Shown here: positions 34,575 to 44,213 of the stretch, one piece after another
Position numbering within the stretch: position 1 is the first letter of the stretch
Layout of the letters: every line of letters begins with the position of its first letter
From: a virus
Direction: 5' to 3' (one strand)
Length of the DNA: 44,311 nucleotides
IMG/VR virus record: IMGVR_UViG_3300029893_000018
Coordinates: 1-44,311 of that record
The notes under the pieces: generated by a model
What the model was told of the DNA's origin: nothing
Database searches by the model: none
Seen by the model: the letters and a program-made list of their open reading frames with translations, nothing else
Made by a program: the position numbers and the translations under genes

Positions 34575-35198
34575 ATGATCAAAACTTTTTCTCAATTCTA
34601 TCAAACTATTTATAGTGAAGTAGATGAACAATTTAATACAATAGTATTTAAACAAACAATTAATGAAGATTTTGGTGTGACGGCTCTTGGGGCATTAGCA
34701 GGAATTTATGCTCTTCATAAAATTTCTAATAAATATAACAAATGGAGAACTAAAAAGTTAGTAGATGCTGCAGAAAAAGTAGTGTCGCATAAAACTCATC
34801 CTGACGAACTTCATAAATTAGCTTCTCATAAAAATTCTGGGATTAGATATTTAGCAACTTCTAATCCCAGTCTTAGTCATAAAACTGTTAAAAAATTATT
34901 AAAAGATAAAGATCCTCGTGTAGCTAATCAAATGAATAGACATTATCCTATTTGGCTAAGGCATCAAGGAAATAAAACCTTAAAAGATGCTACAGAAAAA
35001 ACATTATCGCATGAAACTCATCCTGATGAACTTCATAAATTAGCTTCTCATAAAAATTCTACAATTAGATATTTAGCAACTTCTAATCCCAATCTTAGTC
35101 ACAAAACTGTTAAAAAATTATTAAAAGATAAAGATCCTCGTGTAGCTAATCAAATGAATAGACATTATCCTATTTGGCTAAAAACATCAAGAAAATAA
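34575..35198 (+). CDS. Tandem LRV/HEAT-like repeat protein on the opposite strand
   Basis: 207 residues. N-terminal 60 residues (MIKTFSQFYQTIYSE..., a small hydrophobic segment VTALGALAGIYAL) followed by two near-identical 74-residue copies containing HPDELHKLASHKNSxIRYLATSNPxLSHKTVKKLLKDKDPRVANQMNRHYPIWL. The spacing of LA, IRYLA-NP, LL-DKDPRVA resembles leucine-rich variant (LRV)/HEAT repeats, helical protein-binding surfaces. A MKTF-FxxF-type start is common in T4-like structural proteins. Runs against its neighbours with its own late promoter; likely a mobile late cassette. Function unknown. Confidence 0.8.
   Translation: MIKTFSQFYQTIYSEVDEQFNTIVFKQTINEDFGVTALGALAGIYALHKISNKYNKWRTKKLVDAAEKVVSHKTHPDELHKLASHKNSGIRYLATSNPSLSHKTVKKLLKDKDPRVANQMNRHYPIWLRHQGNKTLKDATEKTLSHETHPDELHKLASHKNSTIRYLATSNPNLSHKTVKKLLKDKDPRVANQMNRHYPIWLKTSRK
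34764..35183 (+). repeat. 222-bp tandem duplication inside the LRV-like gene
   Basis: Copy 1 at 34764-34985 and copy 2 from 34986; period 222 bp (74 codons). Few base differences separate the copies, indicating recent duplication. Confidence 0.9.
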
Positions 35199-35259
35199 AA
35201 ACTTAAAAATTAATCCTTTATAAGTTCCTAAAAGAACCGGAGAATTATTAGGAATTTAA

Positions 35260-35508: not shown

Positions 35509-36582
35509 TTAAATTTTCTTATCAAAAAAAGGAATTTCTAATCCTTTATATCTTTTTAATTGTCCATCAACATAATATTCAACTTGATAACTCTCTTCGT
35601 ATCCTTTGGAATCCTTACGATGAATTACATTATTATTAGCATCATAATCTTTCCAATATTCGCATCCATTAGAATCTTTATAATGAATTAAATTATTATT
35701 AGAATCGTATTCTTGCCAATATTCATTTCCTCTAGAACTTTTATAATGAATTACATTGCCATTGGAATCGTATTCTTGCCATTCTTCATTTCCATTAGAA
35801 CTTTTATAATGAATTAAATTATTATTGGAATCGTATTCTTTCCAATATTCATATCCTTTGGAATCCTTATGATGAATTAAATTACTATTGGAATCGTATT
35901 CTTTCCATTCTTCATTTCCATAAGAACTTTTATAATGAATTAAATTACTATTGGAATCGTATTCTTTCCAATATTCATATCCTTTGGAATCCTTATGATG
36001 AATTAAATTACTATTGGAATCGTATTCTTTCCATTCTTCATATCCATTACAATCTTTATAATGAATTAAATTATTATTAGAATCGTATTCTTGCCAATAT
36101 TCGCATCCTTCGGAATCCTTATAATGAATTATATTGCCATTGGAATCGTATTCTTGCCAATATTCGTATCCTTTGGAATCTTTATAATGAATTAAATTAC
36201 CATCGGAATCGTATTCTTTCCAATATTCGCATCCTTCGGAATCCTTATAATGAATTATATTGCCATTGGAATCGTATTCTTGCCAATATTCGTATCCTTT
36301 GGAATCTTTATAATGAATTAAATTACCATCGGAATCGTATTCTTTCCAATATTCGCATCCATTAGAATCTTTATAATGAATTACATTACCATTATCGTCA
36401 TAATGATAATAATTTCCCAATTTATCTTTAATCCACTCCACAAATCCTTCGTGATCTCCTTGGACCTGTTTTAACAGTTCAATTGGAAATCCTTCTAGTT
36501 TATTCCTTTCAAAAAAACTAATCCCTTCTTTACAGGCTCTATTTTTGATCAATAATTCTTTCGTAATAAATTCTGGCTTCAT
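35509..36582 (-). CDS. YD-like 21-residue repeat protein (13 repeats)
   Basis: 357 residues. N-terminal domain of about 65 residues (ACKEGISFFERNKLEGFPIELL, VQGDHEGFVEWIKDKL) followed by 13 copies of a 21-residue unit of the form EYWKEYDSNGNLIHYKDSKGY and a C-terminal cap (YYVDGQLKRYKGLEIPFFDKK). The YDxNGN core resembles Rhs/YD beta repeats, but units are shorter. The N-terminal and cap segments match those in the gene at 40664-41479. Its ATG overlaps the stop of the Bfd-like gene (ATGA). Presumably an extended beta solenoid or roll; a binding or anti-host role is only guesswork. Confidence 0.8.
   Translation of the reverse strand: MKPEFITKELLIKNRACKEGISFFERNKLEGFPIELLKQVQGDHEGFVEWIKDKLGNYYHYDDNGNVIHYKDSNGCEYWKEYDSDGNLIHYKDSKGYEYWQEYDSNGNIIHYKDSEGCEYWKEYDSDGNLIHYKDSKGYEYWQEYDSNGNIIHYKDSEGCEYWQEYDSNNNLIHYKDCNGYEEWKEYDSNSNLIHHKDSKGYEYWKEYDSNSNLIHYKSSYGNEEWKEYDSNSNLIHHKDSKGYEYWKEYDSNNNLIHYKSSNGNEEWQEYDSNGNVIHYKSSRGNEYWQEYDSNNNLIHYKDSNGCEYWKDYDANNNVIHRKDSKGYEESYQVEYYVDGQLKRYKGLEIPFFDKKI
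36103..36360 (-). repeat. 126-bp higher-order tandem repeat
   Basis: Two consecutive copies (from 36103 and 36229) of a 126-bp block, each two 63-bp repeat units, appear identical base for base and a third begins at 36355. This shows recent unequal crossover within the repeat gene. Confidence 0.85.
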
Positions 36583-38795: not shown

Positions 38796-39797
38796 TCATC
38801 CTCCTATAAATCCAAAATTATGCTTAGTATCTTTAATATTATGTTTTGAATTATATATTTCTGCAACTGTCCACAATTCTTCAGATTTTTCTAATAAACC
38901 AACCCCAATCTTATTAGCTAATTTTTTGGCCTCTTCTTTATTTAAATATTCAAATTCTAATAAATCAAAACATCTTCCTGGTCTAATAGTGGCTTTATCT
39001 AAATCTTTCACATTTAAATTGGTGGTAAACACAATTTTTTTCTTAGAAGAAACTAATCCATCTCCAACATTTAAAATTTTGTGGGCAACTGGATTTCCTT
39101 CAATTCTTGATAGTAAAAGAATATCAATATCTTCTAAAATTAATATAGTTTCTTCTGAAGAAATAAATTCTGCGAAAAAATCGTCAGTTTCAATACATTT
39201 CATATCATACGAAATCATAGATTTCATTCCAGAATATAACAAAAGTCCTTTAATAAAAGTTGTTTTTCCTGTCCCAGGAGGTCCGGCAAGAATTAAAATA
39301 TTAGCATTAGAATTTAAATATTCTTCATAATATTCTTCAATACTATTATATTTTTTTTGTATAAAAGGATACATTTCCACAACAGGATAATTATCCTCAT
39401 TAAAAGGAATTGTTACATGATCTTGATATGGACCATATACCCATTTAATAGTATTTTTGATGACTTCAAAATTACTTTCAATATAATTAAAAAAATCTGA
39501 AATTAACTTATCATCCCCAATTCCAGTAATATCAATTTCTCTGTACATCTTTCTAATAGAAATGATAAAATCATCATTATATTTTAATAAATATTTTTCT
39601 TTGTTAAGTTGAATTATTTGTACGTCAGAAGAATAATATTCAGAAATTAATTTATCAAATTCGTCGGATTTAATTGCAAGTTGGCTATTTCGTTGGTGAA
39701 CATTTAATCCTTTAGAAGATCTGGAATAAATAAATTCATTTATAATTAAATCAGAAAGATATGAATTTTCTAAGTGTAGTTTATTACCAATTTCCAT
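38796..39797 (-). CDS. BCS1-like AAA+ ATPase (intact copy)
   Basis: 333 residues when started at 39797 (ATG with AAGGGAG upstream); a longer frame to 39875 lacks a ribosome site. The paralogue at 43534 starts with the same MEIG. N-terminal ~160 residues are a family-specific domain; Walker A GPPGTGKT (172-179), Walker B ILILEDID (219-226), then KKKIVFTTNL (sensor 1) and IRPGRCFDL (arginine-finger region). Single AAA module of the BCS1/FtsH-like clade, likely a hexameric remodeller. A second, broken copy lies at 42735-43534. Confidence 0.8.
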   Translation of the reverse strand: MEIGNKLHLENSYLSDLIINEFIYSRSSKGLNVHQRNSQLAIKSDEFDKLISEYYSSDVQIIQLNKEKYLLKYNDDFIISIRKMYREIDITGIGDDKLISDFFNYIESNFEVIKNTIKWVYGPYQDHVTIPFNEDNYPVVEMYPFIQKKYNSIEEYYEEYLNSNANILILAGPPGTGKTTFIKGLLLYSGMKSMISYDMKCIETDDFFAEFISSEETILILEDIDILLLSRIEGNPVAHKILNVGDGLVSSKKKIVFTTNLNVKDLDKATIRPGRCFDLLEFEYLNKEEAKKLANKIGVGLLEKSEELWTVAEIYNSKHNIKDTKHNFGFIGG

Positions 39798-39828
39798 AAA
39801 TCCACTCCCTTTTATATTTTTGTTAAGA

Positions 39829-40125
39829 TTATTTAAATCTGATCGGAATACAATACTTATTTTCGATTGAATCATACATTTCAGTAATTAAATTATTTTT
39901 TATTTCATGTTTTTTATAATTAAATAAAGCCCCTACAGAAGTAACTATAATTAAGAAATTTCCAAAATAAAAATTAATTATACCATCTTTATCTAATATT
40001 TGAAAAATTGGAATTTCTGAAATAATATGTCCTAAATAAGTTCCTATAGTAAATCCAATTGTTAAAAATGTTATATATGCAGCCCATAAAATAGCCGCAA
40101 TAATTGCACCTCCTGTTATCAACAT
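39829..40125 (-). CDS. Small membrane protein, start uncertain
   Basis: 98 residues with two or three hydrophobic segments (GGAIIAAILWAAYITFLTIGFTIGTYLG; FGNFLIIVTSVGALF) and a charged C-tail. No Shine-Dalgarno precedes ATG 40125. A better site (GAGGATTAAAT-ATG) lies at 40255 in another frame, whose first ~40 codons (MKEIILLQNSLLYKWLFFFEL) also look translatable. A single longer gene broken by a frameshift around 40125 is possible. It sits just upstream of the AAA+ gene. Confidence 0.55.
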   Translation of the reverse strand: MLITGGAIIAAILWAAYITFLTIGFTIGTYLGHIISEIPIFQILDKDGIINFYFGNFLIIVTSVGALFNYKKHEIKNNLITEMYDSIENKYCIPIRFK

Positions 40126-40663: not shown

Positions 40664-41479
40664 TTAAATTTTCTTATCAAAAAAAGGAATTTCTAATCCT
40701 TCATATCTCTTTAATTGTCCATCTCCATAATATTCAATTTCATAACTCTCTTCGTATCCATTACAATCTTTATAATGAATTAAATTATTATTAGCATCAT
40801 AATCTTTCCAATATTCATTTCCATAAGAACTTTTAAAATGAATTACATTATTATTAGCGTCATAATCTTTCCAATATTCATATCCATTAGAATCTTTATA
40901 ATGAATTACATTATTATTAGCGTCATAATCTTTCCAATATTCATATCCATTAGAATCTTTATAATGAATTACATTATTATTAGCATCATAATCTTTCCAA
41001 TATTCGCATCCATTAAAATTTTTATAATGAATTACATTATTATTGGAATCGTATTCTTGCCAATATTCATTTCCATAAGAACTTTTAAAATGAATTACAT
41101 TATTATTGGAATCGTATTCTTGCCATTCTTCATTTCCATTAAAATTTTTATAATGAATTAAATTATTATTGGAATCGTATTCTTGCCAATATTCATATCC
41201 TTTGGAATCCTTATAATAAATTAAATTATCATTGGAATCGTACTCATACCATTCTTCATATCCTTTAGAATCCTTATAATGAATTACATTACCATTGGGA
41301 TTATAATGATAATTATTTTTTAATTTATCTTTAATCCACGCCACAAATCCTTCGTGATCTCCTTGGACTAATTCTAATAGTTCAATTGGAAATCCTTCTA
41401 ATTGGTTTCTTTCAAAAAAACTAATCCCTGCTCCACAAGCACCAACTTGTTCAAGCCATTTCTTAGTAATAACTTTCAT
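40664..41479 (-). CDS. YD-like 21-residue repeat protein (9 repeats)
   Basis: 271 residues, paralogue of 35509-36582. N-terminal domain GACGAGISFFERNQLEGFPIELL, VQGDHEGFVAWIKDKL; nine 21-residue units (EYWKDYDANNNVIHYKDSNGY type); cap YYGDGQLKRYEGLEIPFFDKK. The cap, stop and following leader are nearly base-identical to the paralogue, while unit composition differs (many YDANNN units here), indicating repeat homogenisation within each gene. Shine-Dalgarno AGAAGAGA. Confidence 0.8.
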   Translation of the reverse strand: MKVITKKWLEQVGACGAGISFFERNQLEGFPIELLELVQGDHEGFVAWIKDKLKNNYHYNPNGNVIHYKDSKGYEEWYEYDSNDNLIYYKDSKGYEYWQEYDSNNNLIHYKNFNGNEEWQEYDSNNNVIHFKSSYGNEYWQEYDSNNNVIHYKNFNGCEYWKDYDANNNVIHYKDSNGYEYWKDYDANNNVIHYKDSNGYEYWKDYDANNNVIHFKSSYGNEYWKDYDANNNLIHYKDCNGYEESYEIEYYGDGQLKRYEGLEIPFFDKKI

Positions 41480-41491
41480 GGTAATTCTCTT

Positions 41492-41896
41492 CTAGTCAAT
41501 AATTAAAACGTTGTCTTTCTTTATTTTAATTCCTATATTACTTCCAATAATTTTCTTATTAACAAATTCAATTCCTTTAAAACATTCTGATAAACTCATT
41601 ATTTCTCCTAAATCATCTAATACATGCTGTTCTGCTATATCTCTAACAGACACTTCTTTCCCATTAGAATTAACTATATAAGGCATTTTTATCCATGTGC
41701 CATCCCCCTTTTGTTTCATGGTTCCAAAAACTTGTTCACATAAATAAATTCCAAAAGAATTATGAAGTATCATTCTATGTCTTGAATCGGCTATATGAGC
41801 TTTTGTTTGATCAAAGAAATTATGAATTTCAATATAATCTTCCGGAATTCCACCAAATTTTTTAGAAGATATTTTAGCGTGAATTAAAGGTTTCAT
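41492..41896 (-). CDS. DUF6915-like conserved phage protein
   Basis: 134 residues. Features: HAKISSKKFGGIPEDYIEIHNFFDQTKAHIADSRHRMILHNSFGIYLCEQVFG and VRDIAEQHVLDDLGEIMSL. The His-rich pattern (HA, IHxFxDxxKA, RHRxxLHxxxG, EQHVxxDLG) is the family I recall as DUF6915; the histidines and acidic residues look like a metal site. Found widely in phages and bacteria, function unknown. A decayed second copy is at 42461-42753. Confidence 0.7.
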   Translation of the reverse strand: MKPLIHAKISSKKFGGIPEDYIEIHNFFDQTKAHIADSRHRMILHNSFGIYLCEQVFGTMKQKGDGTWIKMPYIVNSNGKEVSVRDIAEQHVLDDLGEIMSLSECFKGIEFVNKKIIGSNIGIKIKKDNVLIID

Positions 41897-41904
41897 ATTG
41901 TTAT

Positions 41905-42459
41905 CTAATCGTGGTCGTAATTGTCAATTTCAAATCCTTCCTTGGTAGCAGTAACTTCAACATGATTCCCAAACATTTCCATGAAAATTTCTCTCATCTC
42001 AGAATTATTAAAAATTTTATACAATTCTTCAACTTTTTTAACATTGCTAATTTTGTAAAGTTCTTCTGCTCCATAATCTAAATCATAGATAATTAAATCT
42101 TCTTTTGAAATATCAGCTCCTTTATATTCTCCATAAGAACTAACATATTCTTTTATATTCTCCATAAGAACTAACATATTCTTTTATATTCTCCATAAGA
42201 ACTAACATATTCTTTTATATTCTCCATAAGAACTAACATATTCTGGGCTTCCATTAGAAATAATTGGGAGGTTTACTCTAAAAATACATTCTTCACCATC
42301 GTTATACCAAGGGGTAAACTGTGCCCATTTTATAACCGTAATTTCAGGAACTTCTTTAAAAAATTCAGAAATAAATTCAAAAAAAAGATTTTTTAATTGG
42401 CTGCTAAAAATTTTCTTTTGTTCTGTATAATCTTTAATTAATTCATTAATATTAATCAT
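41905..42459 (-). pseudogene. Conserved phage gene split by a 31-bp tandem repeat
   Basis: N-terminal piece (42202-42459, 85 residues: ...VIKWAQFTPWYNDGEECIFRVNLPIISNGSPEYVSSYGEYK) and C-terminal piece (41905-42177, 90 residues: ...GADISKEDLIIYDLDYGAEELYK, MFGNHVEVTATKEGFEIDNYDHD) are in the same frame and belong to one protein: the WxQxTPWxNDGEEC and HVEVTATKEGFEIDxYDHD blocks are typical of one family in T4-like aquatic phages. Between them a 31-bp unit occurs four times; reading the second copy in its shifted frame meets TAG. One copy would give an intact protein of about 153 residues. Confidence 0.75.
42127..42243 (-). repeat. 31-bp VNTR, four copies
   Basis: Units start at 42127, 42158, 42189 and 42220, each beginning TTCTCCATAAGAACTAACAT on the plus strand; the fourth is partial. 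The unit length is not a multiple of three, so copy number changes the reading frame; three extra copies (93 bp) restore frame but expose a stop. Confidence 0.95.
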
Positions 42460-42460
42460 T

Positions 42461-42753
42461 TTAATCCACCTTTGTTATATTGTTAAAAGACATAAATTTT
42501 TTATTACTTTTCCTTCCCTTTTCTGTTCCGCTCATCCATTCTTGAATTTTTATATTATTCAAATATTGTTCCTCTGTAGGAATAAATCCTAAATCTTGGA
42601 TAATATGATCTTCTCATATATCTCTTACTAATACTTGTTTATTATCACTATTTACAATAAAAATTCCAAAAACTTGTTCGCATAAATAACATCCGGAACG
42701 CATGCCTTTGAAAAATCTATAAAATTATGAATTTTTATATAATCTTCAAATTC
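42461..42753 (-). pseudogene. Decayed second copy of the DUF6915-like gene
   Basis: Leftward reading gives FEDYIKIHNFIDFSKA (compare PEDYIEIHNFFDQTKA in the intact copy), then loss of the RHR-LH stretch with a frame change, then GCYLCEQVFGIFIVNSDNKQVLVRDI, an in-frame TGA, EDHIIQDLGFIPTEEQYL and a C-terminus to TAA 42461-42463. It is joined upstream directly to the broken AAA+ gene. Confidence 0.75.
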
Positions 42754-43534
42754 GTAGTGAATATCATCTTCTTATCATTCATCTTAATCAACCCATCCCC
42801 AATATTTAAAAACTTATTCATCAAAACATTTCCATCCCTTCAAGGAAGAATAAATGTATCCACATCCTCTAATATCAAATATCTAGAACTATCAGAATTT
42901 ATAAAACAAGTAAACATTCCTCTTCATACGTAATCACTGCACCCTTATCACCATAACTTAATAATCCTTTCAAAAACGTAGTCTTTCCAGTTCCAGGAGT
43001 CCCCAATAATAATAAAATATTAGACAACAATTCTAAAAATCTTTTATAATACTCAGCAACACTACTATATCCCTTCTTCCCCAAAATAGAATAAAATCCA
43101 ATTCCAGGAATCTCTTCCTTATCAAATTTAATATCTGTAAAACTCATCCCTTTATCAGTATAATAATACCTCATTAAATTTATATTCCTTTTATAATCTT
43201 TAAATATTTCATCAACTTTCCCTTTAATCTCTTCATAGTTCCTCTTCCCTAAACTATATAAATCAATCTTCATCGAACCATAAGTTCTATAAGTTAATAC
43301 AATAAAAGAATCTTCAGAATCGAAAATATATCCTTCCCCAAAATTCATTACCTTATAATTTTCTATAATACTTTCTATAAATCTCTCAATATCTTCTTGA
43401 TCATTAATTACAAAACTTTCTCCATAATAAATATCATTCCCAATATTTTTAATATAAAAATCTGTAACTAACTTAGTAGAAACTATTTCTTATATATTAT
43501 TAATATCAGCGTTAATATTAATACCAATTTCCAT
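42735..43534 (-). pseudogene. Decayed second copy of the BCS1-like AAA+ ATPase
   Basis: Starts MEIGININADI at 43534 with AAGGGGA upstream, stops at codon 15 (TAA 43490-43492), continues with recognisable family sequence; an open stretch from 43348 keeps Walker A LGTPGTGKTT. A frameshift after EEECLLVL, then ILEDVDTFILP, an in-frame TGA, NKFLNIGDGLI and MIFTTNLK, where homology ends at a TAA. At least three lesions, so non-functional as an ATPase. Codons use more C/T than the intact copy. Confidence 0.8.
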
Positions 43535-43660
43535 AACATCCCCTTATTAAATTTTTCTTATAATATTTAAAACAATACAAACATAATTTATTATCAATAT
43601 TAAATTTAATATCAGTAATATAATACAATATAAAATACGTTTTGTTTAATATAATTATAT

Positions 43661-43741
43661 CTTTTTATTTTTTTTACTTTTTATTTTTTTTACTTTTTAT
43701 TTTTTTTTTACTTTTTATTTTTTTTTTACTTTTTATTTTAC
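43661..43741. repeat. A-tract direct repeats
   Basis: Five or so copies of a CTTTTTATTTTTTTTTA-type unit with variable T runs and near-helical spacing (16-18 bp). It lies in the gene-free stretch 43535-43779 between a broken gene and a terminator. Likely intrinsically curved DNA; could be an UP element, protein-binding site or simple slippage product. Confidence 0.85.
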
Positions 43742-43817: not shown

Positions 43818-44213
43818 TTAATTCTCATCCTCATCCTCATCCTTGCTCCACCTATATCCTTGTGAATCCTCTTTGTATATCACATTCCCTTCTTCGTCGT
43901 ACTCCATTACAACCCAATCATTTCCTTCCTTGTAGTAAGTCAAATTCCCTTTTTCGTCATACTCTTTCCAATACTCTCCCCATCCATTATCCTCCCAATG
44001 TACGACATTCCCTTTTTCGTCATACTCCATCCATTCCTCGTATCCTCCATTGTTTTTATAATGTATTAAATTCCCTTTTTCGTCATATTCCTTCCAATAC
44101 TCCATCCCGGAGTCATCCCATCCATGGACGACCTTCCCTTTTTCGTCAGATTCCTGCCAGTACTCCATCCCGGAGTCGTCGATTCCATGGAAAACATTAA
44201 TTTTAGCGTTCAT
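43818..44213 (-). CDS. Short YD-like repeat protein in a self-contained cassette
   Basis: 131 residues, five 21-residue units (EYWKEYDEKGNLIHYKNNGGY type) without the N-terminal ACxxG...FFER domain of the two larger paralogues, and an acidic C-terminus (SKDEDEDEN). Codon use is more GC-rich than in its relatives (many TAC, GAC, GGG). It has its own sigma70 promoter, 5' hairpin and terminator, the arrangement of a phage moron. It may be an ancestral or independently acquired member of the repeat family. Confidence 0.8.
   Translation of the reverse strand: MNAKINVFHGIDDSGMEYWQESDEKGKVVHGWDDSGMEYWKEYDEKGNLIHYKNNGGYEEWMEYDEKGNVVHWEDNGWGEYWKEYDEKGNLTYYKEGNDWVVMEYDEEGNVIYKEDSQGYRWSKDEDEDEN

Follow-up and report, generated by a model that had tools for sequence, protein, structure and literature searches.

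A 31-bp tandem array inside gene X

We analysed IMG/VR virus record IMGVR_UViG_3300029893_000018 over its full length of 44,311 nucleotides (hereafter the window), a linear virus contig of 44.3 kb that may be a fragment. Its baseplate and tail proteins match T4-like tailed-phage families, which identifies it as a contractile-tailed phage. No RNA families or tRNA were found in the window. On the minus strand, positions 42121..42244 contain a 31-bp unit, AGAATATGTTAGTTCTTATGGAGAATATAAA (coding strand), repeated four times head to tail without a mismatch; Tandem Repeats Finder reported the array over the same interval with a period of 31, 4.0 copies and a 100% match. A local search allowing up to three mismatches placed the unit at exactly these four sites and found no further copy elsewhere in the window, and 100 shuffles yielded 0 matches to it. 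The exact 31-mer was also absent from 2.9 million viral contigs, a set from which this record and near ones were possibly left out. A perfect array with at least three copies of a unit of 12–200 bp occurred just once in 1.46 Mb of other viral loci. When perfect arrays within ORFs of other viral loci were considered, the unit was divisible by three in 19 of 20, hence a 31-bp unit within a gene is unusual. The four-copy intragenic array is real as well as unusual, and an array of this kind is expected only in a gene whose frame has ceased to matter, or in a switch under selection.

The array divides one minus-strand gene, here called X (42459-41905), into two pieces of 85 aa and 90 aa that share a frame; the repeat-finder output and the ORF coordinates agree on this point with the earlier note, which had described four 31-bp copies parting one protein into two open pieces. 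The N-terminal piece (42202..42459, minus strand) runs through native residues to EYVSSYGEYK, then continues with RIC to a TAG in copy 2, and carries the family's conserved W-x-Q ... N-D-G-x-x-C-x-F motif. The conserved F-G-x-H ... G ... H-D tail is part of the C-terminal piece (41905..42177, minus strand), a 90-aa ORF whose ATG start lies inside the array. One copy encodes EYVSSYGEYK, and X read through one copy has an open frame of 153 aa; a single copy does restore the protein, as had been claimed. It had also been pointed out that the extra 93 bp, a multiple of three, nevertheless pass through TAG, and reading the frames bears this out: they cross a frame with TAG, followed by TAA six codons on. 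An alternative genetic code or stop recoding is excluded, as the intact genes of the window use all three stops (TAA 23, TGA 6, TAG 2) and the copy-2 frame holds both TAG and TAA.

Single-copy X matched phrog_9564 from end to end (residues 24-153 against positions 27-175 of the 175-position profile, E=7.8e-17), and this homology, together with single annotated genes in other phages (see below), upholds the earlier statement that the gene is conserved. Of the 23 columns with a conservation of 80% or more, X keeps 20, and the other 3 are conservative aromatic changes, so that the gene was probably under constraint until recently. We found no lesion in X apart from the array. X matches the phrog_9564 profile without being the single uninterrupted ORF of that family, since the array interrupts it, and as a conserved gene cut after 85 aa of a would-be 153 it has the form of a pseudogene.

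Other repeats are present in the window. Three genes (35509-36582, 40664-41479 and 43818-44213) are made of 21-residue (63-bp) RHS-type repeats; two of them share an N-terminal segment, GISFFERNxLEGFPIELL. Copy numbers differ between the genes, with Tandem Repeats Finder values of ~12.7 (35509-36582) and ~8.8 (40664-41479). These genes are a likelier site of in-frame repeat variation than the 31-bp array. Approximately four copies of a T-rich 18-bp unit, TTTTTTTTACTTTTTATT, occupy intergenic DNA at 43660-43739, beyond the pseudogene block described below, and a 222-bp unit occurs twice (91% alike) at 34751-35208, over much of the ORF at 34575-35198, which ends within that array.

Relatives of X and its DUF6915 partner

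A tblastn search with single-copy X gave matches in 86 phage records, where single annotated genes include Synechococcus phage B23 gp139, Gordonia phage Bantam gp128 and genes of Streptomyces phages of the Karimac group. A profile search of viral contigs returned 311 relatives, and the best-scoring 80 were fetched and combined with four phage records into a set of 84. The fetched relatives are ~28-41% identical to X and include no close strain. X is one uninterrupted ORF in all 84 relatives, although in three of them the profile match falls into two parts of that ORF; a tandem repeat within X was found in none of this set. The two separate genes whose presence in relatives the earlier note had named as counting against its reading do not occur in any of the 84. 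One copy is evidently the ancestral state of X, because these relatives have a single uninterrupted gene without a repeat and the unit, through EYVSSYGEYK, aligns with their single conserved (Y/W)-G-E-Y stretch. Since none of the 84 carries a tandem repeat in X, the array does not appear to be a maintained contingency locus across the family. Searches of phages at near or distant sensitivity returned no close DNA relatives of the record, and X was not found in the 25 records with the most similar baseplate protein, which are fragments.

We noted that X is seldom found without a DUF6915 gene beside it. DUF6915 lies upstream of X, mostly directly, in 81 of the 84 relatives (the 4 phage records and the best 80 of 311 viral-contig relatives). 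It is also adjacent to X in 30 of the 31 bacterial genome contigs with X (27 upstream, 3 downstream), the hosts of the pair being Streptomyces, Catellatospora, Cupriavidus, Hydrogenophaga, Epilithonimonas and a cyanobacterial MAG. DUF6915 has invariant H, D, R and E residues, and the X family an invariant W-x-Q-x-x-P-x-F-x-D-G-x-x-C-x-F core. The literature searched held no mention of DUF6915, and a defence library gave no meaningful match for X or DUF6915. DUF6915 and X (phrog_9564) form an undescribed conserved adjacent pair in phages and bacterial contigs, for which our searches turned up no function on record. Adjacent in more than 100 phage and bacterial loci, this pair is a more useful outcome than the switch question.

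The fold of an X relative, predicted with high confidence (pLDDT 92.8, pTM 0.84), has helices and strands both before and after the break. In this model, a cut after 85 residues would take away the C-terminal helices together with the final pair of strands, and a functional N-terminal fragment is unlikely. Fold searches against the PDB gave nothing significant (best E 0.65 for X and 1.0 for DUF6915), and the significant matches in BFVD were uncharacterised phage proteins.

Copy number and the surroundings of the array

We modelled the locus in silico with 0-10 copies of the unit. The frame stays open at N=1 alone, and truncation results both at N=0 and at every N≥2. Since copy 2 is always read in the TAG frame, every array from N=2 to N=10 gives an identical 85-aa product. 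Arrays of N=4, 7 and 10 return to frame, yet the earlier TAG has already ended translation, and they leave the gene no less OFF than N=2 or 3 does. Gain or loss of one or two units among arrays of N≥2 is therefore without effect, as the copy-2 stop has already been met. The sole route to an ON state in this model would be the loss of all extra copies, after which, at N=1, no array is left for slippage; reversal through the simultaneous loss of three units is possible. As a switch, the array would matter little, the arithmetic forbidding cycling. The earlier note had left a choice between an on/off frame switch and a captured broken variant: the broken variant is supported by the 84 intact relatives and by the pseudogenes upstream, and the frame-switch reading is not supported, given that only N=1 is ON and that the 84 relatives have no repeat.

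Both pseudogenes lie directly upstream of X on the coding strand. One is a DUF6915 pseudogene in two parts on the minus strand: the C-terminal two thirds (42479..42694), with an in-frame TGA at 42614-42616 and at most 65% identity to intact relatives, and an N-terminal remnant of the same gene (42682..42750) in a different frame. Its first ~18 codons are missing, as are ~11 codons between the two parts. The other is an AAA ATPase pseudogene (42741..43534, minus strand), related to an intact copy at 38796-39875, with a TAA near codon 15, a frameshifting lesion near 42913 and a TGA at 42840-42842; its C-terminal part is lost, and it is fused to the DUF6915 remnant. Directly downstream of X is an intact DUF6915 gene (PF21866, phrog_8143; 41492..41896, minus strand), a divergent second copy. 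X thus stands at the edge of a decaying block.

We also noted that the intact downstream and pseudo upstream DUF6915 copies share 77-90% identical stretches of 31-44 bp (41799-41842 with 42704-42747, and 41722-41752 with 42664-42694). These perhaps reflect past exchange between the copies flanking X, though the proteins differ more overall.

To place the damage in time, we compared the DUF6915 remnant with the relatives closest in X, to which it is mostly 54-67% similar; intact DUF6915 partners at the same X divergence have mean similarities of 61-70% (sd 12-13). As the remnant is about as similar as X divergence predicts, the decay of the partner would also be young, and the identity of the four copies points to a recent loss of X too. 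The X and DUF6915 losses both look recent, X having also kept most of its strongly conserved residues.

Origin of the array and comparison with known systems

We consider it probable that the array arose as a recent loss-of-function tandem expansion in a decaying block, and we take this to be its best explanation. X would be a once-functional member of the phrog_9564 family, which occurs in phages and bacteria and is normally placed behind a DUF6915 gene. A 31-bp stretch of its coding sequence would have been duplicated in tandem, the array then expanding to four copies without divergence among them. As the unit length of 31 is no multiple of three, copy 2 is read in the TAG frame, and translation ends after 85 residues. 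The array would then be one of several inactivating changes in the 42.1-43.5 kb region, where the DUF6915 partner and the AAA ATPase are pseudogenes too, and this region is most likely under relaxed selection, perhaps due to the second, intact DUF6915 gene and the second AAA ATPase. Nevertheless, the undamaged state of X apart from the array also fits a temporary switch-off. Moreover, the order X-DUF6915, as formed with the intact gene directly downstream, occurs in 3 bacterial loci, hence X could have a partner.

The assembly or its sampling might have produced what we see: misassembly or a minor defective variant could account for the array or for its number of copies, and perhaps also for the damaged block. 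The locus lies less than 2.5 kb from the end of a linear viral contig, the four perfect copies span 124 bp, near the span of a short read, and no second contig with the unit turned up among the 2.9 million viral contigs, from which own or near records were possibly left out. However, in ordinary graph assembly a copy-copy junction must derive from reads, even though the assembled copy number could be incorrect. Among the lesions upstream are multi-base deletions and substitutions to stops, not homopolymer slips only, and the rest of the contig holds long intact genes; altogether, we regard an artefact as unlikely. A reversible on/off locus, with four copies OFF, a 93-bp deletion between the first and last copies giving ON, and a mixed population, strikes us as quite unlikely. 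Slippage or recombination could readily act on four identical 31-bp direct repeats, and the single-copy form of an otherwise undamaged gene is fully open. However, changes among N≥2 would be silent and only N=1 would be ON, without the one-in-three cycling of known repeat switches, and N=1 leaves no repeat to slip on; in addition, the repeat occurs in 0 of 84 relatives, and the partner and the next gene are dead as well. It is very unlikely, though conceivable, that the array acts as a silencer that is easily set and rarely reversed, with multi-copy forms stably OFF at any length and contraction to N=1 turning on X, as a partner of DUF6915, in a small ON subpopulation. If true, such a "locked" repeat switch would differ in kind from mod-3 phase variation.

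We weighed two further readings. Both pieces of X might be made, the second from the array ATG, and act together. For N≥3 it is always the second-last copy that supplies the start ATG of a 90-aa C-terminal ORF, and GGAG stands upstream of each such ATG, but the spacing of 13 nt is longer than usual, two genes are found in none of the 84 relatives (4 phage and the best 80 of 311), and the predicted structure joins elements of both halves in one model (pTM 0.84). We therefore hold a split gene to be highly improbable. Hardly any weight falls on the array being a DNA element, such as an iteron-like protein-binding or replication site, that lies inside the gene by chance: its four perfect, evenly spaced copies do resemble iteron arrays in form, but the unit is X's own coding sequence for a conserved stretch and is absent elsewhere in the window, and none of the 84 relatives has the array. 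The locus illustrates clearly how a phase-variable repeat can be told from a dead one: simulate all copy numbers, check relatives and check neighbours.

The literature searched gave no direct precedent for the array besides neuO of prophage CUS-3, a phase-variable O-acetyltransferase gene with AAGACTC heptanucleotide repeats (PMC8653822, PMC13001214). Full-length neuO protein results when the number of repeats is a multiple of three; this number ranges from 3 to 53 among genomes, and switching of strains is seen in culture (PMC8653822, PMC13001214). Like neuO, X is a phage-borne gene with tandem repeats in its coding sequence and a unit not divisible by three. By contrast, several repeat numbers are ON in neuO, whereas X is open at N=1 only; the mod-3 cycling of the open frame seen in neuO is absent here, as is a repeat array in related genes (0 of 84). 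X shares the conserved motif of the uncharacterised families phrog_9564 and phrog_10375 and differs from them in its interruption by the array. It also resembles pseudogenes made by short tandem duplications, in that it is frameshifted by a duplicate of its own sequence and lies in a block with other dead genes, but it has four identical copies rather than two.
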